Positions 5,107-48,627 of a stretch of 64,000 nt of DNA are shown piece after piece. A program made the position numbers and the translations under genes. Position 1 is the first letter of the stretch; every line of letters begins with the position of its first letter. Location of the stretch: positions 1 to 64,000 of the IMG/VR virus record IMGVR_UViG_3300017598_000263; one strand, 5' to 3'. This stretch comes from a virus. The notes under the pieces were generated by a model, which saw only the letters and a list, made by a program, of their open reading frames with translations, ran no database searches and was not told the DNA's origin.

Positions 5107-7872
5107 ATGTCTTTTTTAGGTGACGTAGCCGATGGTTTAAGACAAGTTACTGGATATGATGCCTTTAGAAATATACTATCAAGTGCTCATAAATCTATCC
5201 TTGAAGAAGCATTTTCTTGGATAGGTATTGAAGGTGAAACTGTAGTCCTGGTTGAAAAAGTATCTACTGCTGTATTTGAAGATAATGATGATGACTTAAT
5301 ACAGGATGCTACCACTCGTGCAGCATTAACCCACGTAACACTAAATGTTCCATTCTTTGATAGCTATATATCTGAAATACATATGGCTAAAAAACAAATA
5401 AGAGAATATTTCAAATATGCTGAAAACGGTAGGTATTTACACAGCCTACCAACTATGGAAGTAACCGGTGGAAGAGTAGATGCAGATGCTGTTTCAGCAG
5501 CAGTAAATACTGCCCTGGGTGGAACATACACAGTAACAAGCTACAAAAATGAATATGTTCCAGCTGACATATACTTTAAGCATCAAATGCAATCATCTCC
5601 TTATTTCTATATACCAGAAACTAATACGCTTACATTTACGGATCCTAATGGGGTTGAAAGGACTGACTATAAATTTTCAGGTGTGGAATTTGATCCAGAA
5701 ACAAGAAAACACATCATAAACATCCGTAGATCAGTAGCTGTTGTTGTATTCTGGATTGAAGGAGCAACCAGTGTTGTTGAAGGTGACTCAACTACATACA
5801 CAGTTTACTGCAACACAGAAATACCTACTGGTGAATCAGTGGATATAACATTCTCTTACGCAGGATCTGCAGTAGATGGGGATGACTATATAAGTGTTGC
5901 TTCAGTAACTATGCTGCAAAATACAACAAGTATCGATGTAGTTATACCTACTAGTGAAGATGCAATAGCAGATGACTATAAGAATTACTATATAACTATT
6001 GATTCAGTAGATGACCATGGTGCTTTTAGTGATACACACATAGATGCCAAAGATCATATCAATACAGTTATAACTGACGATGATGCATTAATTTTAACCA
6101 TGACAGATGTCATAGTAGATGAAGATGCAGGTAACGTAGTTATCCCGGTAAAACTTGAACAAGGTACTGGAGCTGTATTTACTGTTGAATATGAATTAGA
6201 AGATATTACAGCTACTTCAGGTGTTGATTACACCAATGAACCGGAAACATTAAACTTCGTTGGTAATGCCCTGGAAGTTCAAAATATAACTATTCCGATT
6301 CTTACAGATAGTGAAGCAGATGATGATGAAAAATTTAGAGTATCCTTCACATCATGCTCTAATGGTTCAGTAGATATTTCATACAGTATTGTAGTTACAA
6401 TATCCGATGAAACTGAACCTACGATGCTTACAGCAAAGATAATACGTCCTAATTACATTCGTCAGCGTTCACTGCTAGTAACCTGTTACGAGACATCAGG
6501 ACCGTCTACAGATTGGGTTTATTGGATATACAACCATGAAAGTGCTACTTATGAAGGATTGAGTACACAACTGTATGTAATTGACGATGTACAGATGATG
6601 CCAACAGCTATTCTTAGACAAGATAAAGCTAATGTAAATGATGATAAAACTACCAGAGAATACCACTCTACTAAGATGCTATGCCAAAAATTAGGGTTAA
6701 GCGTAGATAGTATAATTGAAAATCTGGATGGTAATGAAAGCATTGATGATATTGATGATGTGTATATAAATTTTGCAGTAGCTCCAAAAGATACACACCA
6801 ATTAGTATCTAAATTACTGTACAACATGTTCTATAAAATTGTAGTAGACGAATTACTAACATCTACAACTGAATCATTTACTATGATGTTCAGAGAACAA
6901 GATGTTAATAACATACTTATGTGGACTGAACATTCATTTGATGAAACATTACCCGGCGTAGTTGCTGAAGTAGGAGAATATACACACACCATAGTTGCGA
7001 GAGTACCTGCAGTTATAGGCCAAGGAGAAGCTGATTTTGGTGAAATACTTACACCAGAAGTAGCATCTTACTTCAATATAAAATACCAGGTAGATTCAGT
7101 TTCATTCTCTCAATTGACTATAAGAAACTTGAGTGAAATGTCAGATGTAGAACATGGAGGATTTCACAATTCAGCTTTTACTAATATTGAAGATGATAGA
7201 TTCACTGTCCCATTATCCTGGGATGCAATAGACGCTTTAACAGCAAAAGAACAACTGCAAGTATATAAATACATACTGAGATTGGACATATTTGCTATTA
7301 GTGTAACTCACCTTGAATATTACGAAACTGAAGGGTTCATAACGCTGTTTACACTTACACTGAGGGCAATATCCATTTATTCACTTGGATCATCATCTAC
7401 GTGGACTGAAGCAGCTATAGCGGTGGTTTCAGCATATGCAGTTGGTGAGATAGTAATATATATAGCTGAACAGACAGGTAATCCTACTCTTGCAGCAGTA
7501 GTTGGGCTATTAGTTGCTGTTGCTTTAGTTAATCCAGGTCAAATAAACCTTTCTGAACTTGTTAACCCAGAACAGCTATTAGCTTTAAGTACTAAATTTG
7601 CTAATAGTTTAGCTACAGCATATGACACAGTATCTCAGCAGATGAGTGAGGATATAGCATATATCATCAAAACTACTGAAGAACGCTTAGAAGAACATGA
7701 GGAAAGTACACCTGATAGTGTAATTGACGTAGAGTTTATGGCTGCTTTAAAGACATTCGATTCAAGCATGTATGATGCCATACAAGGTCAATATGACTTC
7801 AACAGAATTTACGACTATGATAGTGTAGTAACAGATTTCTTTAACAATCGACTCTTAATAGGTGTTGTATAA
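5107..7872 (+). CDS. Large virion protein with two Calx-beta domains
   Basis: 921 residues. Two tandem Calx-beta-like domains at about 212-320 and 325-440 show the typical GDDYISVASVT and SGVDYTNEPETLNFVG strands plus acidic loops; Calx-beta domains often bind calcium. A helical N-terminal region and a large central domain flank them. Near residues 768-808 lie two hydrophobic segments (AAVVGLLVAVALV) that could insert into a membrane. A late virion component, perhaps involved in adsorption or DNA entry, is inferred from the domains and from lying just before the internal virion proteins. Confidence 0.6.
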   Translation: MSFLGDVADGLRQVTGYDAFRNILSSAHKSILEEAFSWIGIEGETVVLVEKVSTAVFEDNDDDLIQDATTRAALTHVTLNVPFFDSYISEIHMAKKQIREYFKYAENGRYLHSLPTMEVTGGRVDADAVSAAVNTALGGTYTVTSYKNEYVPADIYFKHQMQSSPYFYIPETNTLTFTDPNGVERTDYKFSGVEFDPETRKHIINIRRSVAVVVFWIEGATSVVEGDSTTYTVYCNTEIPTGESVDITFSYAGSAVDGDDYISVASVTMLQNTTSIDVVIPTSEDAIADDYKNYYITIDSVDDHGAFSDTHIDAKDHINTVITDDDALILTMTDVIVDEDAGNVVIPVKLEQGTGAVFTVEYELEDITATSGVDYTNEPETLNFVGNALEVQNITIPILTDSEADDDEKFRVSFTSCSNGSVDISYSIVVTISDETEPTMLTAKIIRPNYIRQRSLLVTCYETSGPSTDWVYWIYNHESATYEGLSTQLYVIDDVQMMPTAILRQDKANVNDDKTTREYHSTKMLCQKLGLSVDSIIENLDGNESIDDIDDVYINFAVAPKDTHQLVSKLLYNMFYKIVVDELLTSTTESFTMMFREQDVNNILMWTEHSFDETLPGVVAEVGEYTHTIVARVPAVIGQGEADFGEILTPEVASYFNIKYQVDSVSFSQLTIRNLSEMSDVEHGGFHNSAFTNIEDDRFTVPLSWDAIDALTAKEQLQVYKYILRLDIFAISVTHLEYYETEGFITLFTLTLRAISIYSLGSSSTWTEAAIAVVSAYAVGEIVIYIAEQTGNPTLAAVVGLLVAVALVNPGQINLSELVNPEQLLALSTKFANSLATAYDTVSQQMSEDIAYIIKTTEERLEEHEESTPDSVIDVEFMAALKTFDSSMYDAIQGQYDFNRIYDYDSVVTDFFNNRLLIGVV

Positions 7873-7922: not shown

Positions 7923-8408
7923 ATGTCGGATAGTTTAGCATTTAATTTTAAACCAGAACCAATTGATTTAGGTATAAATACTAGTAATTGGGAATTTATT
8001 AATGGTGAATTTGTAAATACAGCAAACAATGAAATAAATACTAATAACTCTAATCTTTCAGATGGATCAGCTATGAATGGTTGGCAAAAAGGTGCTTTAG
8101 GTATAAATGCTCTTACTGGTTTAGCTGGTATGTTCAATGCTTACAAAGACTATGGATTACGAAGTAAACAATTAGCTTTTAATAAAGCATTAGCAAATCG
8201 TAATTTAGCTAATTCAGCTGTTACAACAAATCAACAGTTGAAGAACCAGGCAATTATGGCTGCTCAGTTAGGTGGTGGACATGATTATGGTACGAATGCA
8301 ATGATTGAAGCTGCAGATCGTAACTATACTCCTGTCAGTGGTGCTCCAGTAGGACTAGCTGCACCAAAACAAGTATCTCTACGAGATGAGATTGTAAATC
8401 CAGTTTAG
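7923..8408 (+). CDS. Internal virion protein, T7 gp14-like organisation
   Basis: 161 residues. Residues 50-120 carry the WQKGALGINALTGLAGMF pattern, then Asn/Ala-rich helices (NRNLANSAVTTNQQLKNQ), as in the small internal virion (ejectosome) proteins of T7-like phages. The start has a strong cggagaaatacc ribosome site after a 50-nt gap. It begins a run of progressively larger internal proteins (161, 594, 994 and 2097 residues), the order expected for an ejectosome set. Confidence 0.6.
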   Translation: MSDSLAFNFKPEPIDLGINTSNWEFINGEFVNTANNEINTNNSNLSDGSAMNGWQKGALGINALTGLAGMFNAYKDYGLRSKQLAFNKALANRNLANSAVTTNQQLKNQAIMAAQLGGGHDYGTNAMIEAADRNYTPVSGAPVGLAAPKQVSLRDEIVNPV

Positions 8409-8417
8409 GAAAATACT

Positions 8418-10202
8418 ATGGCTAATAATATTGCTTGGCAACCTACTCAGTTTCAAAATATAAATGTTGATCCTACAAGAGGATTAGCTATTGCTAATGC
8501 AGCAGCCAAAAGTATGTCTGACACAATTGCTAAACAGCAAGAAGCTGAATCTTTAGCTGAATACCGTGGTAGTACACTGGATATTGCCAGACAAAAACAA
8601 GCTCATCTTGAAGGTGAAGAAGCTAGAAATATTGCTGCAGAAAAGAGAGCTATAGCTAATGCACGAGCAGAAGATGCTCACAACTTGAAATTGGCTAATG
8701 AGCAGGGATTACTTATCAGTGATATAGTTGCGTCATCAGGTGGTAGTAACTATGACAAAGTTATGCAAGATCCTAAACTACTAGATGATCCTAGATTTAA
8801 AAAAATGTTTGGTGGAAGATTAAATACACAAGATCCTATACTTCAAAACATTCAAGCTGATTTCAAAAAACAAGCAATAGCTCAAAATAAACGATTATTT
8901 TCAGATCCGACTGTTTACCATAATACTGTTTACAAGAAACTACTTGAATCTAAAAAATTCGGTAGAGAAGATGCTGCAGCTATTGCTACAGAAGAAACTA
9001 CTAAGTTATTCCCAACATTAGATAAAGAGTTTGCTCTAAAGATGATGATGCAACCAGGCAAAGCAACCTATAACATGATGGGTGGTAGCAGTGGTGGAGG
9101 TAGCGGAAGTAATAAATTACTATTCGGACAAACTAATCCGAATGATGAAAAACAACGTATTGAAGATTTTAAAAATCTACAAGGTATTACTGACGATCAA
9201 GCTGAACTTCAACTACCGGAATGGTTAGGTGGAGGAAGACCGTTAGATTTCTTTGGCGTAGATTTAAAAGGTAATGATATTGCAACATACCTTGCTGACA
9301 TGGCAAAAACAGATGATAAAGGTCGTCCAGGTACTAATGTTGCAGAATCCATAAAATACTTACAAACACTTACTAGAGGTGGTGTTACAGATTTTCGTAT
9401 CGATAAGCTATCTCCTGACCAATTAAAAGCTTTCCGTACTGGTGCTAGAAATATGCAAGCAGCACAGGAACGTACTTATAATTCTAAAGGTGGACAATCA
9501 GGAAGTATTTTTGAACAGCAAGCAGCAACTCAAAATATGATGAATGAGCATAATAAGGGTGTTGTAGCTACGCAAAAAATGGATCAGGGTACTAGGCAGC
9601 AACGCATCAACACAATCTTAAGTGGATTGCCTGGGGAACCTGCTAAAGCTAGTAGTAAAGTTCCTAATAAACTTTTAAATGACAGTATTATAGATATTGG
9701 TAAAACAAGTAATTCAACAGACCCAATACTAAATAATTTACGTGATGAGCCAATAAATGAAGTTTCAGCTAATAGTAAAATTATGGTAAATCCATCTACT
9801 ATTCCAGATGTTCCTGCACCACGTTATCCGGGAGATGTAGTAACAGACTTTATAGGTGACTCAGCAAGTGCTGCTGGTAATCTGTATAAAAAAGGTGTTG
9901 ATGATATTATTTCTGCACCAGGCAATGTTGCTAAAGTTCTTGGTAACATAGGTGCTTGGGGTGGTGCTAAACTTGCTCAAAAGCATATAAAAGAAGATAC
10001 AATTAAAGGTAAAAATATAAATACTGTATTAGATGCAGTGAATAGTGGTGATATATCTAAATTAGATAGTCGTCATGTTCGTTTAGCTATAGAAAATAGT
10101 GATTCAGAGAGTGATAAAAAGACACTAGAAAAAGTGTTTAATGCAGTAGTAAAAAAAGAACGTGAAGGACACAAAGGTTTTTATCCTTCAGTATTTAACT
10201 AA
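8418..10202 (+). CDS. Internal virion protein, mid-size
   Basis: 594 residues, Ala/Lys/Gln-rich and mostly helical. A coiled-coil region spans ~25-110 and is followed by a Gly/Ser-rich linker near 220-235 (GGSSGGGSGSNK). No enzyme motif is visible. The AGGA ribosome site overlaps the end of the previous gene. An ejected structural protein is inferred from composition and from its place in the internal-protein cluster. Confidence 0.6.
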   Translation: MANNIAWQPTQFQNINVDPTRGLAIANAAAKSMSDTIAKQQEAESLAEYRGSTLDIARQKQAHLEGEEARNIAAEKRAIANARAEDAHNLKLANEQGLLISDIVASSGGSNYDKVMQDPKLLDDPRFKKMFGGRLNTQDPILQNIQADFKKQAIAQNKRLFSDPTVYHNTVYKKLLESKKFGREDAAAIATEETTKLFPTLDKEFALKMMMQPGKATYNMMGGSSGGGSGSNKLLFGQTNPNDEKQRIEDFKNLQGITDDQAELQLPEWLGGGRPLDFFGVDLKGNDIATYLADMAKTDDKGRPGTNVAESIKYLQTLTRGGVTDFRIDKLSPDQLKAFRTGARNMQAAQERTYNSKGGQSGSIFEQQAATQNMMNEHNKGVVATQKMDQGTRQQRINTILSGLPGEPAKASSKVPNKLLNDSIIDIGKTSNSTDPILNNLRDEPINEVSANSKIMVNPSTIPDVPAPRYPGDVVTDFIGDSASAAGNLYKKGVDDIISAPGNVAKVLGNIGAWGGAKLAQKHIKEDTIKGKNINTVLDAVNSGDISKLDSRHVRLAIENSDSESDKKTLEKVFNAVVKKEREGHKGFYPSVFN

Positions 10203-10228: not shown

Positions 10229-13213
10229 ATGCCTAATTATATATTTGATAAAGCTCCGGGTCCGTATGACTTACCTTCACTGGCTGATAGTAAGTCATTT
10301 AAGTTAAATAAAAAGTTAGCAGAAAAGCGTGAAAAACTTACACCTGCTCCATACCCAACTCCTGAAGAAGTAGCTGCAGCTGAATTATCCTTAGCTGGTG
10401 GAGCAAACTCTGGAAGCAATATTCTTGATATGATTGAATCAAGCTTATACCAGGGTGCAGGTAATATTGCAGATACATACGCAAATATTCAACAGAATGC
10501 ATTAGGTAACAAAGATTATGCCCTTTCTCCTGAAGTAGATGCATTATCCAATGAAGCTCATTCAGATAGCCTTGCAGGTTACACTGGACGAGGAGCTTAC
10601 CAACAAAATATTAAAAATTTAACTAACTCAGTATCTGAAGCAGATTCTATAGGTGACTACTGGGACGTAGCTAAACAAGGATTTGCACTTGGTCCTGAAG
10701 CATTAGCGGATTCTGCTGCAAGTGGTGTAGAACTTGGACTTGGTGCATTAGGAACTGCTGGTGTTACAGCTTTAGCTGGTCCAGTAGCTGGAGCTGTTAC
10801 AGGTGGATTACTATTTGGTAAAAAAGTTAAGAAAGCAAAAGAAGCTGCTGAAAAAGTAGTTAGTTTTACTGATCGTTTAGAAAAAGGTGTTAACGCAGTA
10901 CCAGGCATGATCGTTAAAAGTGCTGGAAGAACAAGTCTACTAACTGCAGATATTGTTGAACAAATGCGTCAGGAATATAAAGAAGCTAATAATGGTCAAG
11001 AACCTTCAGCAGCTTGGTATGGAACAAATGTACCAATAATAATGGCACTGAATGCTTTAGAATTTGGAATAATTTCAAAAGCTATACCTAAAGCTAGTAA
11101 GTCTTTTGTTAAAGACATGAAAAAATCAATGAAATTCATGCCTAAAGGACATGTTAAAGAAGCTGCAAAAAGAATACTTAGCGGTGCAAAAAAAGTTTTC
11201 ACAACAGCTGGACAAGAAGCCGGTCAAGAATACTTGCAAACTTGGCATGAAATACTAGCACCAAAAGTAGATGGAGATACATTAAATACATTAGTTAATT
11301 CTGCTGTAAAAGAATTAAATGTAGATAAAAATCAGACAGAAGCTATAGTAGGTTCAATACTAGGCTTTAGTGCTGGTGGTACTGCTAAAGGTATTGCTAC
11401 TGTTCCAACAACTGCCGTAGCTGCTACTGCAGACATAACTGCGGGTACTGTTAAAAAAGTAGCTAAAGTAGCAGGGAAAGGTATTCAAAAAGTTCAAACA
11501 GCTGCTAACTATAAGTTACTTAGTGAGAAAGATCGTCAAGCTGTATCTAACCTAAGTAAGGTTAAGAAAAAAGTGTATGACGAAAAAGTTGAAGTTTTAG
11601 ACAATCAGATAAATATTATTGAAAATTCTGAAACACATACAGATATGTTTGAAGATGAAGAATTATCTACAGTAATTAAAGAATACCAGAAAGCCGGTAG
11701 TTTTACTGATGAAGACATGAATGACCCAGGTAGATTAAAGAACTTAAAAGATAAGCTATTAAGTTCTTATCGTGCTGAAAAAGTATTGTTAAGAACAAAA
11801 CTTGAAACATCTAACATTGCAGCAATGGGTAAATTAGCAGGTAAAAATGTTAAAGATGCTACTGTCGAAGCTGCAGAAAAAACTTTAGCATTCGCTGAAG
11901 ACGTAATACCCGATGAAGTTGTAGAAAAGGCAATAGTAGCTGCACAAGTAACTAAGAAACAAGCTGCAAAAATGCTAAAAATTGCACAAGATGTAAAATC
12001 TAGTGCTGCATTAGGTGTTATAAATGCTGGACTTACAGCGTCTAAAGACCAATACAAAACTATTTTAACTGCAGCACGTAACCTTGAAGTAGGTGAACTA
12101 GAACGATCAATAGACATTATTAAAGATGCAAATCCAGATCTAGGTAAAAAATTAAATACATTATTAGAACAAAAGATATCTGTACTACCTAGTCTAGGAC
12201 AAAGTAACGATACACTTATTAATCAAAAAACAGTATCAAAAGTAATTAAAAACTTTGGTTCTAAATCAGTATCAGATGCAAATTTAGCATCAGCAATATT
12301 TGAATCTTTAGCAGGAAAAGTTGAAGATAACGAGACATTAGATCAAATATCTAAAGCACTTGAACACTATAAAAAATCTGATGCATATAAGAATACAGAT
12401 GCGGAAGGTCGTATTGATGAAACCAATATGGCTGCATTAGAAGGTAAAATAGAAAAAGCTTCTGCTAGAATTAATCGCAAGAAGAATGCCGTAGATAAAG
12501 TAAAAGATGTTAGTACTAAGGCAAAAGAAAAAGTAACAGAGTATTCTAAGCCTTTAAAGAAACTTATAAAGAAAGCTAAATTAATAACTGAGAAATTCTC
12601 AGAAGCTAATAATAAAGTTCAACTAGCTGCAGCAGCAAAAGAAGGACCGGAAGCTGTTAAAAAAGTACAAGCTAAAATTGATAAAGGTATAGCTGACGCT
12701 AAAGCTGCCCAGGAAGCAGCTCATAAGCTGGCTAAAGAACAGGAAATTACTGTACCTGAAGAAACATTTATTCAAAAAGTTAAACGTAATGTAGAAGACA
12801 TTAATGAAGCAGTTAAAGAAGGGATAGATACTGCTAATGAAGTTATTAAAGAATCAAAACGTGAACCTAAAGTTTTAGAAAAAGGTAGTATCAATGATCT
12901 TATAAAAAGTATTTCTAACGAGATTAGTAATACTCCAGAAGCTGCTAAAAATTACTATAACAAAACTAAAGCTTTAGCTAAAAAATTAAAGCTGATAGGA
13001 TATGAAAGTGTACAGGATATAGAAGACCTGTCTGTTCAGTTCCCTGGATTAGCAAAAGATCAGAAACTACTTAACCTATTAAAAGATAACTTTGAAGTAG
13101 ATGAAATGGTAGTAGAGCAAAAAGATACAAACGAAGATATTGATGAAGTAGTTAACCCGGTAACTGAAAGAAGTATTTTATCTAGACTAAAAAATAAATT
13201 TACAGGATGCTAA
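10229..13213 (+). CDS. Internal virion protein, long helical, pore-like segments
   Basis: 994 residues, Ala/Lys/Glu-rich. Residues ~155-200 contain a Gly/Ala-rich hydrophobic stretch (GTAGVTALAGPVAGAVTGG) and ~265-285 a second hydrophobic helix. The remainder is long charged helices and coiled coil. This layout suits a protein that forms a channel or sheath across the cell envelope during genome entry (inference). It lies directly before the virion RNA polymerase gene, which starts six bases after its stop. Confidence 0.6.
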   Translation: MPNYIFDKAPGPYDLPSLADSKSFKLNKKLAEKREKLTPAPYPTPEEVAAAELSLAGGANSGSNILDMIESSLYQGAGNIADTYANIQQNALGNKDYALSPEVDALSNEAHSDSLAGYTGRGAYQQNIKNLTNSVSEADSIGDYWDVAKQGFALGPEALADSAASGVELGLGALGTAGVTALAGPVAGAVTGGLLFGKKVKKAKEAAEKVVSFTDRLEKGVNAVPGMIVKSAGRTSLLTADIVEQMRQEYKEANNGQEPSAAWYGTNVPIIMALNALEFGIISKAIPKASKSFVKDMKKSMKFMPKGHVKEAAKRILSGAKKVFTTAGQEAGQEYLQTWHEILAPKVDGDTLNTLVNSAVKELNVDKNQTEAIVGSILGFSAGGTAKGIATVPTTAVAATADITAGTVKKVAKVAGKGIQKVQTAANYKLLSEKDRQAVSNLSKVKKKVYDEKVEVLDNQINIIENSETHTDMFEDEELSTVIKEYQKAGSFTDEDMNDPGRLKNLKDKLLSSYRAEKVLLRTKLETSNIAAMGKLAGKNVKDATVEAAEKTLAFAEDVIPDEVVEKAIVAAQVTKKQAAKMLKIAQDVKSSAALGVINAGLTASKDQYKTILTAARNLEVGELERSIDIIKDANPDLGKKLNTLLEQKISVLPSLGQSNDTLINQKTVSKVIKNFGSKSVSDANLASAIFESLAGKVEDNETLDQISKALEHYKKSDAYKNTDAEGRIDETNMAALEGKIEKASARINRKKNAVDKVKDVSTKAKEKVTEYSKPLKKLIKKAKLITEKFSEANNKVQLAAAAKEGPEAVKKVQAKIDKGIADAKAAQEAAHKLAKEQEITVPEETFIQKVKRNVEDINEAVKEGIDTANEVIKESKREPKVLEKGSINDLIKSISNEISNTPEAAKNYYNKTKALAKKLKLIGYESVQDIEDLSVQFPGLAKDQKLLNLLKDNFEVDEMVVEQKDTNEDIDEVVNPVTERSILSRLKNKFTGC

Positions 13214-13219
13214 AAGATA

Positions 13220-16200
13220 ATGGCTAAATTTTGTTCTATCATAAACAACATATTTGATAAGTACATTTATGCAGTTGACCAGATTGCTGAAATACAAAAG
13301 CTAAAGGATAAACCTTTACGTTTTAATGTATGGGCAACTGAACAAAGTCATGTCAAAAATCTATTTAAAAAGAATGGAATAAAAGACCTACCTGCTACTG
13401 AAGGTATGGATAATTCTCCACATGTAATAACAAAAATTAAAAATGCTGTTAGACGTGTAAATGAGTCAGAAGCCTTAGACTCTGCTGAAAAATTTATGGA
13501 AGATATTATAGGCAGTGATGACAATATAGAATTATCTATTGCTCTCCATGAAATTATGGAGTCTGTAAAAGGTGAATCTGATAAAGCTCGTAATCTTGGT
13601 ATTGATATAGTTGGTATTTCTAAAACATCAGTGCTACCAGTGGTCCCTATGTCTAGAGTAGCTGCTAGTATTGGTAGAAAAATAGTATTCCAAACAGGCC
13701 ATAGATTCAGAAGTAACAAGAAAAACAGAGTTACATCTGCAGATATTGAAACTCTATATTACACTGCAGGTAAAATGGCATTAGAGATGTTGGCAGAAAA
13801 GAAGTACATCAGCATCAACGATACGTTACCTTCTATAAAAGATTACTTAACTGAAGCAGAGCTTCGTAAAGAAAGTGCAAATATAAATGCTGTTACCAAA
13901 AAAGGTAAAGAAGTTAGAACAGTAGCTTTAAACGAAAAGAAACTTGGTATAAAAGCTGAAAGCACAGCTAACTACTTTTTAAATAGAACTGAATCAGATT
14001 TGGCAGATACTAAACTTGGTGTTATAGCAGATGCATTGAGAGCTGTACGAGAAATTACACAGCCATCAACAATTGTTAATCCACACACTGAAGGTAATAT
14101 TGCATCTGAAGAAGACTTAAGAGATTTGGACGACGACAATGTTAATCCAGATCCTATAAGTGATAGTGTGCGTCAAGAACTATACAAAAATCCTTTGTAC
14201 GTAAATAATTCAATTCACGGACTAATGGGTCTATTGAATCGAGAAGTCAAAAAGACAGGAGATTCTGGTTCAAAAATCATGAGATCACTGCTAGGAACTA
14301 ATAGCAAAGGCTTAATTGATTCTTTATTTGGAATCAAAAGATCTGATGATTTTTCTAAAGATAAAAAAGAAAGTATTGCTGGACAAAACTTATCCAAAAC
14401 TACGCCTCTTGATGACCTGGCGGAGAATTATGATGTTATCCAGGGGGATGGAGCAAATCCAGTAGGATTACATCTTCCTATGAAGCAAGGTCGTAACATA
14501 CGTTTTTACTATCACAACAGCGTATTAAATCCACATGGGTCCAAGCATAGTCGTTATACATTAACGTCTGGCAAGTACACAGTAGATATGAATTCCGCTG
14601 ACTTTAAAAAACTTGTACACGGTATTTCAGAAGCTATTGGTGACAGTAAACTGACATTAGATAATTTCGTAGGCAAAACCGATAGTAAATTAAATACTGC
14701 ATTAAAAGTTTATGAAGATTATAAAGCCTACATCAATAAAGGTAGTTTAAGCAGTGCAGTAGCTGAAGTAGGTAAATTAGCTAAGATTTTCCCAGGTACT
14801 GACTACGTTAGTCTTTTGACCGGGTTACAAGCAGTACAGGACATTCGTACTACACCTGTCAATGGAAAAATAACTACTGAATTCTTAGGTTCTTCAGATG
14901 CTACTGCGTCTGGAGGAACTCAAACATTTATGCAAGCTTTAGGTACCAAAGAATCAGTTACAAAATTCTTAAGAAAATTAGGAATGCTTAAGAATGCTGA
15001 TGGTAACGCTGAAGTAAAAATGAGAGATTTATATGCCATTATGGAAAATGGTATTAAAGATTTCATTGCTGGAAAAAGTATTGAAGGTTTATCAGGACAA
15101 GAACTTAAAGTTGATAAAGATGAAAAATTAACAGGTTCAAGATTGCTAATGGCTAAAACGGTAGAACTGTTATTTGATAATGGTGACAACCTTAGAAATT
15201 TAGCTAAAGATCCAACAATGGTTTTTGTATACAAACAAAGAGAGTTTGGCGCAGTAGATACAATGGCTCGTAACTTAGCTGATCGTATAGTAGATAATTT
15301 AAATAGTAAAAAAGTACGTAGCTACTTATCAACTCTTTTAGACGATACTGAATACGATACTGCTGACATAAAAGATTTAAATAGCAGAACTGGGCTGTAT
15401 CAAAAAATTGTTACTGCAGTGAAAGACACTGGTCTTACAAGTGACCTATATAACATTTTGAAAGCTACTGTAGATAACCAATACCTGGAACATTACAATA
15501 GTCGTTTGGAGTCTGTATGGAAATTTGTAGAAGATTTAGACTTAGATACTAACTTTAAAATTCTTCCTGCTGGAGCAGTATTATCTGGTAAAGAAAATAA
15601 CATTAATGATCTAAAGCAATTTGGTATGCCAATTTCAAAAGTGCATGAAATAGCACATGAAGTCGGGGATACTGGTGATGTGATATTAACTCGTGAACAA
15701 AAGTTAGCTAAGTCAGTGGCTGAAGTATCTACTGTGCACAGTATTGACTCAGCACAGCTTTACCATGCATTAGATAGAGTAATGAAGAAACCTGAGTTTA
15801 AAGGAATGGGAGCTGTAGTTGTACACGATGAAGTACGTGGTCCTGTATCTTTAGTGAGAGCTGTAGAAGTAGAGTATAGAAATATTACTAAAGAGATTAC
15901 TCAGAAATATGATATTCATCAACAGATCTTACTAGCAGTAGCTGCATATAATCCTGAAGTAGTTAACGATCCAAAATACAAAGCATTGATGACTGAGATC
16001 AATGGACATGTTGAAGAAAAAAATAAAATTATTAGTAATAGTTTTAATGAAGACACTGACGCTTTAATTGGTGATAATGCAAAAATTAAAGAATTCGCTG
16101 GTGAAGTAGAAGTTGAAACTAAAAAAGAAACAAAGCAGGAAACTAAGCCTGAGACTAAAAAAGAAAAGTCAACTCCGGCTAAGAAAGCTTTAAGCATATT

Positions 16201-19200
16201 AGAAGATCTTGCAGGTGAATCTGAAATAATAGCTAAATTCTTAAAGTCTGTTAATTCTAGTAAAATAGAAATGGGAGATGATAATAAGTTTTATTCTGGA
16301 GATGACCAAATAACTATATCTGGTACCGATATTGGTAGAGGTGCTGGTGAATCTTTAGATATGTCTAAGCCTGGTGACAGAAAGCTACAGAAAGAACTTA
16401 TTGAGCATGAGATTACACATGCAAATACAGTAGCTTTAATAGCTAAAGAATTAAGCAGAGTTGGTCAAAGTGAGACTAAGAGAGAATTACAATACTTTAA
16501 TAAAGCTATTGAAAATCTAAATAAGCTACTTCCTAATATTATAAAAAATAGTATAGAAGGTAATTTAAACGATGAGACTTATGATCGTGTTACTTACGTA
16601 TTAAATCAAAAGAATGAAGCTGATAAATTAGCTGAATTCATAGCTATAATGACAACAGAGCCTGAAGTGGCTGCTGATATATATAAAATGCTGTCTAAAG
16701 AAAATCCAAATCTACTGGAAAGGATTAAGGCTTTCATTAATAAAGTTAAAACTGAATACCTGGGTATCAGTGCCAAAGATCTTGATAATGAAATCGACGT
16801 AGAAAAGCTATACGGTGCTTTAGTTAATACAGTAGCTACCGGTGAAACTCAAAGAGAGCAGCAGTACGCTGAAGCTAAAGTGTGGTTGAGTGCGTATAAA
16901 AGAAATTATGGTGCAGGTAATACTGAACAAGTTAAAGCTAATGAAAAACGTAAAGGTAAACTAAATTACCTTAATTATACTGTAGCCAGTATGATGAATA
17001 GCAAACTTGAAAAGAATGGTCAAAGACTTATAGGAAAACTGCATGACACAATGAAATCAGTATTTCCTATGTACTTTGATGTTGCTAATAAAATTAATGG
17101 TATATACGACAGCTCAGAAGCTCTACAGCAGTTCTATAACACAGTAACTGGTGAAGGTTCTGACAAAGTACTTAAAGCAGACTTATTAGCACAAGCTCAT
17201 AAACTAATGGCTCAACAGACAGCAATTACTAATGACCAGATGGGTAAATTTAATGAGCTGTTAGGAAAGATGAGTGCTAAAGAAAAAGCTACTATAGGTC
17301 GTTTTGTAAATGAAATGCCATTGCATGACTATTTTGTTTTAGCTGATGAGTTTAAAACTGAAGAAGCGATAGCGACTGAAGTAACTAAACTAGAAAAGAA
17401 AATTAGAAAGCTTAAACAAAAAGAAGCTATTAACGACGTAGATTCTTTAATTGCCTGGAATGTTCTTCATGATGAAGACACAAAAGGTACAATTTATAAT
17501 TTAGAAACAAAATATCCTATAAGTGATGATTCTGATTTTGGTATTTTAGTACGTAAACTATTAGCTTTGAAATCTATACAGGCTATAGAAAAGACTGAGG
17601 AAGGTTCTGGTAACTTTGAAAAGCTACTAGAAAATACTGACCTGGTTAATTTACTTAAAGATACAAGTGTAGCTAATAAACTAAGCCTATTAGAAAATAA
17701 TGGTACCGGTAGATTAACAGATAGTGGTGTAGCTAATTACTGGAAGGAACCTTTTGTTACTGAGGTAATTGAACTTAGTGATTTAAAGAGATATGAAAAC
17801 GGAGAAAATACCGGGTGGAAAGTATTAAGGCATCCTACAACCAATAGCTTGGGTGTTGTATACAAATATATTATTGATTCTACAAATATTGGTGGTGCAT
17901 ACACAGATGTAAAATTAAAGTCTGCAGATATTACTGTGACCGGTACTAAAATGAAATATAAAGAACTAGTTGATGCTCCAGACAAAACTAGAAAACTAAG
18001 GTTAACTACAGAAGAGAAAACTGAATTAGGGTTGGTAGATGATTTTAGTCAGAATTTAGTACGTAGTACATCTCATAGTATGGCTATTCAAGATTCACAA
18101 ATATTACGTGATGGTATTTTAAGAAAAGAAACCAGAATGGTTATAGGAAAGAATGTTACTGAATTAGTAGATACTATTAAAGCAGAAAATGTTCATAGTC
18201 CCTGGTTCGTACAGTTTGAAGGTGGTGTTTCCTGGGAAGATATTGATCCTAGTAGACCTGATTTAGATGAAGCTACTAGAAAACAATACAAGATGATACG
18301 AGCTAAGTATAAGCCTGTAGGTAATAGAGCGTCTAATGTAAAAGGTTTTGATAAAGAAATACATTTAGTTAAAAAAGATATTGCTCATTGGTTGATGGGT
18401 GGTAGTTCTCAATCATTATTCAGCAATCCAAAATACAAATGGGCTGCACGAGTAGTGAAAGATTTAATTGCAGCATCTAAGATTAGTATGGTTGTACTAA
18501 ATCCATTGAAAATTATAAACGATAATATATCTAATATTGCTTACATTGGTGTAATGGGAGCATCTCCATTATTTATAGCTAAAAACTATAAGGATATTAC
18601 TCGTGATTTCCAAGAGTATTCAGATCTACAACGTCAAATTGTACAGTTAAAAGTACAGATGGTTGCTAGACCAAATAGTAAAAAGTTAGAAAAGAAAGTT
18701 GAAGCATTACGTAAACAAGTAGATAAAAATCCTTTAGCTGGATTACAGGATAGAGGTTTCATAAACTCTCTTGGTTCAGATTTGGTAGCTAAAAATGCAG
18801 ATACACTTTCTGGTTTACAGGCAGATATACATTCAGCATTAGAATACCTATTGGTAAATAAAAAAGGTAATAAACGATATATTTCTCACTTTATTGCACA
18901 ATTACATAGCATAGGCGGTAATGGTGAAGATTTCTTAAAATACTTAGGAAGTTTAGCCAAGAAAGCTGGCAAAGATGGGAAAGGAGCTGCTAAAGAGCTA
19001 GATCAAGTTTATGATCGATTAAAAGAGATTCGTACTGATGAAGATATTGTGAATTATGTATCTCAATATACAACAAGTCCTGGTGCTGAAACTGTTCGTA
19101 TTGGATCTTCTATAACTGATTTAACAGATGTGTTAGCTAAAGAAACTTTGTATCGTCATTTAATGGAAAATGAAAATATGAGTTCTGAAGATGCACGTAT

Positions 19201-19513
19201 AAAAGTTCTTGATTCATTCCCGGATTACAAAGAGAACATGCCTATTACTATAAAAGAATTAAGTAATAACGGTATCATTATGTTCCCATCGTTCTGGTTA
19301 AGAATTCAGAAAGTTATATACCATACAGTTAAAGACAAGCCAATTAACTTAGCTACTGAGATGTTGCTTCAAGATATGGTTGGTAGTAATTTGAATACAA
19401 TTATGGGAGCAAATGTAGTTAACAAGTACAATGAGTTTGGTGGAATATTCCATACACCATTTGAACCTATGAGTCTTGCTACGTTTGTACCTGTAAACTT
19501 ATTTAAGTGGTAG
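13220..19513 (+). CDS. Virion RNA polymerase (N4 type) fused to a zincin-like metalloprotease domain
   Basis: 2097 residues. Residues ~1-955 have all core motifs of T7/N4 single-subunit RNA polymerases: GRNIRFYYHNSVLNPHG with R425 (T7 WRGR motif); motif A GSSDATASGGTQTF with D560; motif B R659-x3-K663-x7-Y671 (RNLAKDPTMVFVYKQ); STVHSIDSAQLYHAL; and motif C VVVHDEV with H869-D870. A Lys/Glu/Thr linker (about 960-992) leads to a zincin-like domain with H1063-E-I-T-H1067 and a possible third ligand E1139. About 900 further residues are helical and end in a conserved-looking IIMFPSFWLRIQKVIYH region. In N4 the virion polymerase is packaged, injected and transcribes early genes. Here the polymerase is N-terminal rather than central. 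It is the last gene of the late block and its stop lies inside a terminator. Confidence 0.85.
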   Translation: MAKFCSIINNIFDKYIYAVDQIAEIQKLKDKPLRFNVWATEQSHVKNLFKKNGIKDLPATEGMDNSPHVITKIKNAVRRVNESEALDSAEKFMEDIIGSDDNIELSIALHEIMESVKGESDKARNLGIDIVGISKTSVLPVVPMSRVAASIGRKIVFQTGHRFRSNKKNRVTSADIETLYYTAGKMALEMLAEKKYISINDTLPSIKDYLTEAELRKESANINAVTKKGKEVRTVALNEKKLGIKAESTANYFLNRTESDLADTKLGVIADALRAVREITQPSTIVNPHTEGNIASEEDLRDLDDDNVNPDPISDSVRQELYKNPLYVNNSIHGLMGLLNREVKKTGDSGSKIMRSLLGTNSKGLIDSLFGIKRSDDFSKDKKESIAGQNLSKTTPLDDLAENYDVIQGDGANPVGLHLPMKQGRNIRFYYHNSVLNPHGSKHSRYTLTSGKYTVDMNSADFKKLVHGISEAIGDSKLTLDNFVGKTDSKLNTALKVYEDYKAYINKGSLSSAVAEVGKLAKIFPGTDYVSLLTGLQAVQDIRTTPVNGKITTEFLGSSDATASGGTQTFMQALGTKESVTKFLRKLGMLKNADGNAEVKMRDLYAIMENGIKDFIAGKSIEGLSGQELKVDKDEKLTGSRLLMAKTVELLFDNGDNLRNLAKDPTMVFVYKQREFGAVDTMARNLADRIVDNLNSKKVRSYLSTLLDDTEYDTADIKDLNSRTGLYQKIVTAVKDTGLTSDLYNILKATVDNQYLEHYNSRLESVWKFVEDLDLDTNFKILPAGAVLSGKENNINDLKQFGMPISKVHEIAHEVGDTGDVILTREQKLAKSVAEVSTVHSIDSAQLYHALDRVMKKPEFKGMGAVVVHDEVRGPVSLVRAVEVEYRNITKEITQKYDIHQQILLAVAAYNPEVVNDPKYKALMTEINGHVEEKNKIISNSFNEDTDALIGDNAKIKEFAGEVEVETKKETKQETKPETKKEKSTPAKKALSILEDLAGESEIIAKFLKSVNSSKIEMGDDNKFYSGDDQITISGTDIGRGAGESLDMSKPGDRKLQKELIEHEITHANTVALIAKELSRVGQSETKRELQYFNKAIENLNKLLPNIIKNSIEGNLNDETYDRVTYVLNQKNEADKLAEFIAIMTTEPEVAADIYKMLSKENPNLLERIKAFINKVKTEYLGISAKDLDNEIDVEKLYGALVNTVATGETQREQQYAEAKVWLSAYKRNYGAGNTEQVKANEKRKGKLNYLNYTVASMMNSKLEKNGQRLIGKLHDTMKSVFPMYFDVANKINGIYDSSEALQQFYNTVTGEGSDKVLKADLLAQAHKLMAQQTAITNDQMGKFNELLGKMSAKEKATIGRFVNEMPLHDYFVLADEFKTEEAIATEVTKLEKKIRKLKQKEAINDVDSLIAWNVLHDEDTKGTIYNLETKYPISDDSDFGILVRKLLALKSIQAIEKTEEGSGNFEKLLENTDLVNLLKDTSVANKLSLLENNGTGRLTDSGVANYWKEPFVTEVIELSDLKRYENGENTGWKVLRHPTTNSLGVVYKYIIDSTNIGGAYTDVKLKSADITVTGTKMKYKELVDAPDKTRKLRLTTEEKTELGLVDDFSQNLVRSTSHSMAIQDSQILRDGILRKETRMVIGKNVTELVDTIKAENVHSPWFVQFEGGVSWEDIDPSRPDLDEATRKQYKMIRAKYKPVGNRASNVKGFDKEIHLVKKDIAHWLMGGSSQSLFSNPKYKWAARVVKDLIAASKISMVVLNPLKIINDNISNIAYIGVMGASPLFIAKNYKDITRDFQEYSDLQRQIVQLKVQMVARPNSKKLEKKVEALRKQVDKNPLAGLQDRGFINSLGSDLVAKNADTLSGLQADIHSALEYLLVNKKGNKRYISHFIAQLHSIGGNGEDFLKYLGSLAKKAGKDGKGAAKELDQVYDRLKEIRTDEDIVNYVSQYTTSPGAETVRIGSSITDLTDVLAKETLYRHLMENENMSSEDARIKVLDSFPDYKENMPITIKELSNNGIIMFPSFWLRIQKVIYHTVKDKPINLATEMLLQDMVGSNLNTIMGANVVNKYNEFGGIFHTPFEPMSLATFVPVNLFKW

Positions 19514-45258: not shown

Positions 45259-45840
45259 CTACTTAGACAACAAATTATCTGCTCTGAGAACCAAAGCAGA
45301 ATACAACGCAGGATTTGATTGCTGATACTCAGCAGCCACTTCCATTACAACACCGTACTTAAACTCACAATACGCAATATGAGCCAACTCAGGTGTGGCA
45401 TATAAACCAAGGTACACAGACTCACCTGTATTATTACAGCAAGCAGCTCTGTATTTATCGCCTGTGTGAGGTTTATTAACACCTAAAGGATACTTGCCAC
45501 GAGTTTTGCCACTAAGAGTAAAAAGGTTATTCACCCTAGCAGAAACAAATACACAAAACTTAGGTGAGTAATGTTTATTGCCTTCTACTAAAATATCCTT
45601 ATCCAGATGCATACCTTCCCAATCCTGATCTTGCATCCAGGCTCTATAAACAGAAAAGGTAAGCCACTCATCACACATAGTAGTACCTATGTAATGAGGG
45701 TGTTTAGCATGAAATTTAGCGTCATAACAACGTTTAAGCATACCTTGCCACGAGACATAATAAGGACATTTAACGCCATTAACTGAAACAGGTGTAGTAC
45801 TATCATTAATACCAACACCACATACAATATTACTCGGCAT
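45259..45840 (-). CDS. HNH/AP2-type endonuclease-like protein, copy downstream of RNA polymerase
   Basis: 193 residues from the ATG at 45840 (GGAGG five bases upstream). It has CPYYVSWQGMLKRCYDA, CDEWLTFSVYRAWM, MHLDKDILVEGNKHYSPKFC and a C-terminal GLYATPELAHIAYCEFK, the layout of phage HNH-like homing proteins with an AP2-like DNA-binding tail. About half its residues match the gene at 47897-48508. The two paralogs bracket the RNA polymerase gene, as homing genes often bracket essential phage genes. Confidence 0.7.
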   Translation of the reverse strand: MPSNIVCGVGINDSTTPVSVNGVKCPYYVSWQGMLKRCYDAKFHAKHPHYIGTTMCDEWLTFSVYRAWMQDQDWEGMHLDKDILVEGNKHYSPKFCVFVSARVNNLFTLSGKTRGKYPLGVNKPHTGDKYRAACCNNTGESVYLGLYATPELAHIAYCEFKYGVVMEVAAEYQQSNPALYSALVLRADNLLSK

Positions 45841-45908
45841 AATTGCCTCCAGTTTTAAATTAAAAGAATGCCATCCTTGGCAATAAATCCTTAGAAAACA
45901 ACACCTCC

Positions 45909-47864
45909 TCAAGGCATAAGAAAATTAAAAGAATCATTGATAGTATTAGGACCATCCCCTATTACTAACTTAAATGGTGGGATGTCATAAGGTGAACGTT
46001 CAATTATTTCATCTATAATAGATTGATAAAAGTTAGTTTCAAACATCTCATTAAATACTCCTCTAGCTGCTTCAGTAACTACAGGTAGAGCACTAGGACC
46101 ACTAATAAAATCATCGTGTTTAAGAAGTATTGGCCTACCACTATCAAGAATAGCTGTAGTTACTTTACGTAACATGTATGCGTCAATCGAGTGAGTTGCG
46201 TTAGCAAACAGACCACGTTTCTTCTGCTCAACATGGTAAATAACACCACCAACATTAACTTCCTTGCCAAAGTAAGGAAATCCATTCTTATCCTCTAACC
46301 AAGGCATATCACTAATGATTACATGGCTTGTATAGTCTCCCTTGTAACTTGCAGAGGCAACATATACTAATACCGGTACAGACTTGTAATAAGCCCGTGA
46401 ACAAGCTGAGAATCCGTCAGGCATAGTCCAACGAAGGTCTACCTGTTCATTACCAATAACCTTAGTACCCCAATCAGCAATCCTGGGAATATTCTCCACA
46501 GGTTTACCATAGGCATTCTCGTTATAGGCATGAACATCAGCTTCAGTCACATCATCACCCACAGTCTCTGAAATAGTCTTAGCAATGCTACTAATAGCAG
46601 AGCCATGCATCAGCCCCATATGAATCTTCTTGATGTCACTACGCTCAAGAGGAAGATCATAAGCACTACCAAAGGCAGTATGAGAGTCAACGACATCATG
46701 TTCAGCACCAATATTGCCAGCTTTCATCATCTTCTCAGACCTGAATGACACACCACTCATCAACAACCCAGAGTTAGTGAAATCATAGCCAAACATAAAC
46801 TTACTAAGCTTACCTTCACGAGAATCCTTCAACGCTTGAGCAGCCTTATTCAGCAATATAGTTTCACCAAATGCTTCCTCAGTCTCCTGAACCATAGGAT
46901 CTCTATACTGGGCAATAAGCAAGTCTTCAGCACTAATCCTTGCAACAGCCTCATCAACAGATACACGACCATGCAAAGTAACGTAGATTATGTGCTGTAA
47001 CACCCTAGAATCGTCCTCAGTCAATTCAAACGGTACAGCAGCATCAATCATCAAAGTCTCCCACAACTTGCCGTGTGGCTTAATACCTTCAAGCCTAGCA
47101 GCCTCGTAGTAAACACGATCACGACCACAATACTTAGCCGGTAAATAAAATACAGGCATAGCCTTAACCTGATCAACAGCTACATCTGCATACTTTTCGA
47201 AACGCTTTCTACGAACAATAGGATCTTCAGGCAATGTCTTACCATGCTTATCTACCTTTCTACCCCAATCAGTCTTCAAGCTATATCCCTTAAGCAACAG
47301 CTCCTTAGTACACATCTCAGTAATACAAAACGGTACTGAAGACACCTTACGAAGAAATGATTTCTCAGTTGAACTCAACTTCCAACCATTAACCTCTTTC
47401 TGATTAACAACACCAGGCTTATTTTCATAACCCTTAAGCAGATTCTTCTCATGAGATCCACCAAGCTGTAAATACAGACGAGTATGAAACTTCTTCTGAT
47501 GATTAACAGTCACTGATTCGACACGCTTATCTACTGTAAGCGAACCATTATCTATCATCACCTGAGTAATCAATGAACTAGCAATAAGTCTTGCTCGTTT
47601 CTTATCATACTCATGCAATTTAAGACCCATATGAAGGTTTGGCAGCTTATTAACAAGCTTACCAATGAAAGTCTGAACCAACAGCTCATCATTACGATCA
47701 ACAATGGAATTGACAGCCTTAAGCACACGCTTACCGTGTGTTTCCAAGAACCCAGACTCAAGCAGATACTTGTGCACCTGCATAGTCAGAAACTCCATCT
47801 TGTTACCCATCTTTTCTTCAAGTTTAACGAATGCAGCTAGTGTTTTAGTAGTTTCGATGTTCAT
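45909..47864 (-). CDS. Second single-subunit RNA polymerase (N4 RNAPII type, one chain)
   Basis: 651 residues. KYCGRDRVYYEAARLEG (R248), motif A FGYDFTNSGLLMSG (D361), motif B R408-x3-K412-x7-H420-G (RSDIKKIHMGLMHGS), THSIDAYMLRKV and motif C LLKHDDFISG (H583, D584) place it in the T7/N4 polymerase family. N4 RNAPII is a heterodimer of two smaller proteins whose summed size is similar; here everything is in one frame. T7 has Tyr where this protein has His420. It probably transcribes middle genes. Codon use is more GC-rich than in the middle block. Confidence 0.88.
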   Translation of the reverse strand: MNIETTKTLAAFVKLEEKMGNKMEFLTMQVHKYLLESGFLETHGKRVLKAVNSIVDRNDELLVQTFIGKLVNKLPNLHMGLKLHEYDKKRARLIASSLITQVMIDNGSLTVDKRVESVTVNHQKKFHTRLYLQLGGSHEKNLLKGYENKPGVVNQKEVNGWKLSSTEKSFLRKVSSVPFCITEMCTKELLLKGYSLKTDWGRKVDKHGKTLPEDPIVRRKRFEKYADVAVDQVKAMPVFYLPAKYCGRDRVYYEAARLEGIKPHGKLWETLMIDAAVPFELTEDDSRVLQHIIYVTLHGRVSVDEAVARISAEDLLIAQYRDPMVQETEEAFGETILLNKAAQALKDSREGKLSKFMFGYDFTNSGLLMSGVSFRSEKMMKAGNIGAEHDVVDSHTAFGSAYDLPLERSDIKKIHMGLMHGSAISSIAKTISETVGDDVTEADVHAYNENAYGKPVENIPRIADWGTKVIGNEQVDLRWTMPDGFSACSRAYYKSVPVLVYVASASYKGDYTSHVIISDMPWLEDKNGFPYFGKEVNVGGVIYHVEQKKRGLFANATHSIDAYMLRKVTTAILDSGRPILLKHDDFISGPSALPVVTEAARGVFNEMFETNFYQSIIDEIIERSPYDIPPFKLVIGDGPNTINDSFNFLMP

Positions 47865-47896: not shown

Positions 47897-48508
47897 TTAA
47901 ATTAAATTATCTGCTCTTAAAATTAGAGCAGAATACAGCTTTGGATTAGTATGCTCATAAGACTGAGCAGCTTTCTTAATAAGATTTCCCTTAAAAGAAC
48001 AATAAGCAATGTGTGCTTCTTCAGGTGTATCAAATAACCCAACATGCTTGGGTGATCCACCATCACGACACTTAGCTAAAAACCTACCACTAGGAGCTTT
48101 AGTAACACCTAATGGATAGCCCGTAGTATTACTACGCCCAGTAGCTAACAGTAAATTCAAACTACTAGGGATATACACACATGTTTCAGGTGAATAAACT
48201 TTATTACCTTCAACAAGTGCATCCTTATCAAGATGCATACCCTGCCAGTTTTGAGACTTCATCCATTCTCTAAATACTGAAAATGTCAGCCACTCGTCAC
48301 ACACAATACAGTCTAAATAAGCCTTATTAGTACCTGCATAGCAACGATTTATCATACTTTTCCAAGTAACATAGTAAGGACATTGCAGACTCTTGCCATC
48401 AACCTTACGCCTAGTGGAATAAGAAACATCATTAATGCCAACACCCTGAATAGGTCGTCTTTGAGCTAAAGCTTTCACCGTAGCTGGTACCTCGATAAAA
48501 TTTTCCAT
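47897..48508 (-). CDS. HNH/AP2-type endonuclease-like protein, copy upstream of RNA polymerase
   Basis: 203 residues from the ATG at 48508, seven bases after AGGAG (an ATG three bases earlier is also possible). It has CPYYVTWKSMINRCYAG, VCDEWLTFSVFREWMK, MHLDKDALVEGNKVYSPETC and GLFDTPEEAHIAYCSFK, all shared with the copy at 45259-45840. Both end in LRADNL. The leader contains two strong hairpins. It is probably a homing-type nuclease; the exact catalytic His and Asn are not certain by eye. Confidence 0.7.
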   Translation of the reverse strand: MENFIEVPATVKALAQRRPIQGVGINDVSYSTRRKVDGKSLQCPYYVTWKSMINRCYAGTNKAYLDCIVCDEWLTFSVFREWMKSQNWQGMHLDKDALVEGNKVYSPETCVYIPSSLNLLLATGRSNTTGYPLGVTKAPSGRFLAKCRDGGSPKHVGLFDTPEEAHIAYCSFKGNLIKKAAQSYEHTNPKLYSALILRADNLI

Positions 48509-48586
48509 CATTATTCTCCTAATTTGAACAGTTAATATGCGAGAACATGCCTCCGAGTAATACGGAAATCTACTGTCCTCTGTTGC

Positions 48587-48627
48587 GGTAAATGAGTATT
48601 TACCCGGTAACACTCTCCTCAAGAGTG
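48587..48627 (-). other. Two strong hairpins in the leader of the endonuclease-like gene
   Basis: CACTCT-TGAGG-AGAGTG and GGTAAAT-ACTC-ATTTACC (minus strand) lie side by side about 80-120 nt before the start at 48508. Neither has a T-run. They may be a processing site or control expression of the gene. Confidence 0.4.

Follow-up and report, generated by a model that had tools for sequence, protein, structure and literature searches.

The gene at 13220-19513 (+) raises the question of why a virion RNA polymerase (vRNAP) of the coliphage N4 type should stand at the head of its chain, and of what the protease-like piece that follows it might do. The window, meaning the whole stretch of 64,000 nucleotides that was analysed, belongs to a virus record of 71,046 bases whose replication and packaging genes are Schitoviridae-like. 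The open reading frame (ORF) is intact, its product of 2097 aa corresponds to PHROG 2206 (phrog_2206, virion RNA polymerase; E 4.8e-32), and the sequenced phages with relatives along its full length are the Alteromonas phages R22Y and PT11-V19, whose vRNAPs are about 30% identical to it (29-30% across 96-99% of the length). Single-sequence searches (phmmer against the PDB, Pfam, and a single-protein scan of viral contigs) were uninformative, and no relatives in bacterial genomes were found with the patterns used.

Our profile searches bore out the proposal of an earlier note, made from the sequence, that an RNA polymerase (RNAP) lies in residues 1-955 (13220-16084, +). A 14-sequence profile of residues 1 to about 955 matched T7 RNAP at E 6e-6, and in profile-profile comparison it matched the polymerase domain of the N4 group with 95.6% probability and the N-terminal domain (NTD), C1 and C2 of that group with under 1% each, revealing a T7-like single-subunit domain homologous to residues 998-2103 of N4, with motifs TxxGR, A, B and C. 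Throughout the complete relatives in the clade, residues R428, D560, K663, Y671 and D870 were conserved in the alignment, and they align with residues of N4 and T7 RNAP that we take, from established family knowledge, to be the catalytic ones. The motif set had been called complete, which holds for these catalytic residues, all of them retained, but not for the wording of TxxGR and motif A, both of which are variant in sequence (motif A reads SSDATASGG, against EADGVTNG in N4). A charged low-complexity linker follows in the translation (residues 956-984; 16085-16171, +), in the same place as the unresolved linker of N4 vRNAP at residues 2102-2123 (PMC12633501). Beyond the linker lie the zincin-like metallopeptidase domain C1 (residues 985-1228; 16172-16903, +) and the C2 domain (residues 1229-2097; 16904-19510, +; placed by profile alignment to the N4-group C2), which in profile-profile comparison matched their N4-group counterparts at 90.6% and at 96.6% over about 600 columns, respectively. 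Together with the polymerase domain and the match to phrog_2206, this C-terminal homology identifies 13220-19513 as the gene of an N4-type vRNAP.

The polymerase heads the 2097-aa chain because the N4-type NTD is a separate gene immediately upstream, a 994-aa ORF at 10229-13213 (+) that was recognized by synteny and profile-profile comparison. The locus is thus not the new fusion of polymerase and protease that had been proposed; its order is that of N4, NTD-RNAP-C1-C2, with the NTD in a gene of its own. A 13-sequence NTD profile matched the NTDs of fused vRNAPs at 93.8% (LIT1/LUZ7 group), 83%, 77%, 67% and 55% (N4 group), compared with 0.1% for four control proteins; a profile built from 4 sequences had been too weak (5-7% against N4), and the larger set resolved the homology. 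The matched positions were collinear for the LIT1/LUZ7, VCO139 and D497 groups, while the match to N4 was a short N-terminal stretch and that to Vibrio VBP47 was offset. The NTD ORF kept the same place and size across the complete loci of the clade, and wherever both ORFs were complete, an NTD ORF of 911-1248 aa preceded an RNAP ORF of 1884-2142 aa, with the exception of one locus (L035) that was omitted from the split count for its irregular ORFs. In a tree of C2 domains, the split clade formed one group with 100/100 support and with 2.79 changes per column on the branch that parts it from other vRNAPs. These observations show that the window lineage encodes its giant vRNAP as two polypeptides, NTD and RNAP-C1-C2. 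Standard members of the family join the NTD to the other domains in a single giant chain of about 2,800-3,800 aa; because the 994 and 2097 aa lie in separate ORFs here, we filed the window vRNAP as a split variant. L064, a single contig that falls in a different clade on the C2 tree, represents a second, separate case of the split layout.

Within C1, HEITH at residues 1063-1067 (16406-16420, +) is predicted to supply two zinc ligands and the general base, and E1139 (16634-16636, +) is the predicted third zinc ligand; both are present where the earlier note had seen them. Among 24 vRNAPs that were chosen by polymerase similarity, with the motif not required, HExxH directly followed the polymerase in every one, and the third Glu (E1139 in the window, E2310 in N4) was likewise invariant when placed from a C1-only alignment, since full-length MAFFT misplaces it outside the window clade. 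In a set of 33 C1 sequences, the sole invariant columns were H1063, E1064, H1067 and E1139, of which only the last is an independent result because the rows had been selected for having HExxH. The C1 profile also matched the N4 chain 11fw at E 5e-4. An AlphaFold2 model of C1 (pLDDT 88.9, pTM 0.87) displayed N-terminal helices, three strands, a long HExxH helix (model residues 67-95) and a later helix with E1139 (149-162), an element order that, with the sequence homology, reproduces the core fold of zincin-like metallopeptidases and places the candidate ligands in the expected helices of the model. A structural search for gluzincins, which had been suggested alongside the prediction, was less rewarding, as Foldseek returned no significant match for the model in the PDB, and in BFVD no match reached E<0.001. 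Conservation and the model support a gluzincin-type site in C1, and the idea of a zincin-like domain after the charged linker gains from them as well as from the homology to N4 C1. Judging by its sequence, C1 would bind zinc, act catalytically and cleave a substrate.

The presence of a zincin in N4 vRNAP had been described before, and the claim that none was known there was wrong. Iyer et al. (2017) assigned residues 2130-2448 of N4 gp50 to a zincin-like metallopeptidase (MPTase) domain, with a core consisting of an N-terminal helix, a three-stranded sheet, the HExxH helix and a Glu helix; a 2021 review of Pectobacterium phages repeated the assignment, and a 2025 cryo-EM preprint (PMC12633501) named the N4 domain C1. 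What appears to be new is the two-gene vRNAP of a whole lineage, along with the loss or doubling of the protease-like piece in relatives. No report of the split layout of this clade was found in the N4-type vRNAP literature searched, and the R22Y paper reports its 2,083-aa vRNAP in passages that mention neither a split nor a zincin. Zheng et al. (2023) recorded separated vRNAPs in two other phages, for which miscalling or read-through was suspected; their filters demanded ExDGxxxG and a length of 2,500 aa or more, and this clade would therefore be missed.

The occurrence of C1-type domains varied among relatives. In one close relative, known from one metagenomic contig (L034:8007-13661), the whole of C1 was replaced by low-complexity sequence, and the C1 profile found no match in its 50-kb record; its RNAP and C2 were 47% and 52% identical to those of the window, with the polymerase residues intact. 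The vRNAP of Vibrio phage phi 1 (L073) carried two tandem C1-type domains, at residues 1942 and 2177, and the closely related VCO139 carried one. An extra C1-type zincin preceded the polymerase in L064:9764-13042 and L069:3620-17215, giving two C1-type domains each, and in L064 it was located close to where the separate NTD ORF ends. Outside the vRNAPs, the C1 profile matched the internal virion protein 9sfn of phiKMV/LUZ19-like phages at E 6e-7, and the zincin-like segment of 9sfn matched Schitoviridae vRNAPs directly (32% identity to that of phage CB1, E 2e-8) as well as 155 phage records, mostly of phiKMV/LUZ19-like Pseudomonas phages. The annotations of the phiKMV/LUZ19-like records sharing the segment read, in several cases, internal virion protein, exotransglycosylase or endolysin. 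Other metallopeptidase-like motifs were also encountered: L063:6260-16450, a member of a fused clade that also lacks C1, had HELGH at residue 992 before the polymerase, with a weak Peptidase_M48 match (E 0.04), and L044:7779-13904 and L045:6189-12224 carried HEYAHHYI at the place of C1, possibly a different zincin type. The C1 profile had no match in the L044 and L045 records, and the model of the HEYAH region was poor (pLDDT 42).

The neighbourhood of the two genes follows that of N4. By gene order only, a 594-aa ORF at 8418-10202 (+) occupies the place of the ejection protein gp51, and its sequence showed no detectable resemblance to N4 gp51. A 161-aa ORF at 7923-8408 (+) occupies that of the ejection protein gp52 and a 921-aa ORF at 5107-7872 (+) that of the tail plug gp53, both again placed by gene order; they matched families of unknown function, phrog_2646 (E 5.9e-7) and phrog_2220 (E 1.2e-28), respectively, and the gp53-place protein contains a Calx-beta domain (Pfam E 6.7e-13). 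Elsewhere in the window, a 651-aa RNA polymerase ORF at 45909-47864 (-) matched the N4 RNAP II subunit gp16 in residues 324-568, and its first 323 residues had no detectable match to gp15. The sequence suggests that RNAP II may be one chain in this phage, versus two in N4. HNH endonuclease-like genes, both of phrog_953, flank the RNAP II-like gene at 45259-45912 (-) and 47897-48622 (-).

In this split N4-type vRNAP, C1 is probably a metallopeptidase that enters the cell with the polymerase and does its work once ejected. Judging by homology and gene position, the NTD and RNAP-C1-C2 proteins would be packaged in the virion and ejected together with the proteins in the gp51 and gp52 places. The NTD would anchor at the inner membrane, the polymerase would transcribe early genes in the cytoplasm, and C1 would be carried along as an active zinc metallopeptidase that acts on a host or ejectosome protein. 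The target might lie in the envelope or the cytoplasm, and C1 would not be needed to make the polymerase. An injected peptidase is favoured over polymerase maturation because C1 appears dispensable in L034 and is also found on phiKMV-type proteins. A bolder version, in which a deep N4-type lineage delivers a two-protein vRNAP and the zincin figures as an exchangeable effector that is injected and works on a host target independently of transcription, seems possible to us, although we lean slightly against it. Release of the enzyme itself and cleavage of a host protein, the two roles suggested in the earlier note, had already been listed as alternatives by Iyer et al. (2017).

A rival reading is self-processing, in which C1, after ejection, would cut the linker that joins RNAP to the C-terminal part and thereby lift autoinhibition, or would trim the chain. 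We regard this as unlikely, even though autoprocessing has been proposed, with the cleaved P1 DdrB cited (Iyer et al. 2017), and transcription by N4 vRNAP is inhibited by its C-terminal domain, which follows a flexible linker (PMC12633501) just as a linker precedes C1 in the window vRNAP. N4 vRNAP is, however, packaged unprocessed (Iyer et al. 2017) and showed no degradation when purified (PMC12633501). In addition, the clade retains C1 although its NTD comes from a gene of its own, so that severing the NTD from the polymerase cannot be what preserves C1 there; L034 retains RNAP and C2 without C1, and the C1-type domain recurs in phiKMV-type ejection proteins.

A non-catalytic role, in which C1 is a folding or regulatory module stabilised by zinc and serves as a clasp on the polymerase, appears a little less likely again. 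The N4 structure lends it some substance, as C1 touches RNAP via a salt bridge and the C-terminal domain shifts polymerase loops allosterically (PMC12633501). Nevertheless, most columns of the C1 alignments vary and the general-base Glu of HExxH does not, and a catalytic site is favoured because a purely structural zinc would not require this residue; moreover, L034 lacks C1 and phi 1 has two copies of it.

That the two ORFs are one gene, broken by a sequencing error or read through, is very improbable. In its favour, the NTD and RNAP ORFs of the window share a frame and are separated by one TAA and 6 nt, and AD45-P1, which we set aside as an earlier split case, has a record that marks its vRNAP as a potential frameshift. 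Sequencing error or read-through nonetheless explains poorly why the spacing ranged from -13 to +16 nt with all three frame relations across 18 loci of the clade, including two isolate genomes, and some of these loci have AAGGAG-like ribosome-binding sites ahead of the second start. That HEITH is a chance motif and E1139 unrelated is scarcely credible: shuffling the 2097-aa protein yields one HExxH or more in 4.8% of cases, and a second copy at residue 809 is common to no relative, yet the motif at 1063 is judged real because HExxH and the third Glu are conserved at one place in all 24 vRNAPs, in a domain with N4 homology and a predicted zincin-like fold.

N4 vRNAP serves as a model for how so large a protein passes the narrow tail of a phage. 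The natural split suggests that no covalent bond is required between the membrane-anchoring NTD and the polymerase, and the roles of the two can be tested separately because this lineage already splits them. That C1 is gained and lost, and that ejection proteins of the phiKMV type also have it, speaks for a zincin whose role lies in entry or host takeover and not with the polymerase.

Among the known systems closest to the window vRNAP, those of Alteromonas phages vB_AmeP-R22Y and vB_AmeP_PT11-V19 share the two-gene arrangement (1008 or 1000 aa followed by 2083 or 2082 aa) and conserve HExxH and the Glu at about 30% identity. The gp50 vRNAP of coliphage N4 (Schitoviridae; NTD-RNAP-C1-C2; PDB 11fw, 9pnq, 9pnr) has a homologous RNAP, C1 with HExxH and Glu, and C2 in the same order, within the same neighbourhood of gp53-gp52-gp51-vRNAP; it differs in its fused NTD, which has its own gene in the window, and in motif A. 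The zincin-like MPTases of polyvalent proteins, for which Iyer et al. (2017) described 12 clades, have the same core order and are likewise borne by injected proteins. The internal virion protein of phiKMV/LUZ19-like phages (PDB 9sfn, 1337 aa) contains a homologous zincin-like segment with HExxH and Glu, whereas proteins of this type are annotated as internal core or peptidoglycan-lytic ejection proteins, with no polymerase annotation under the match.
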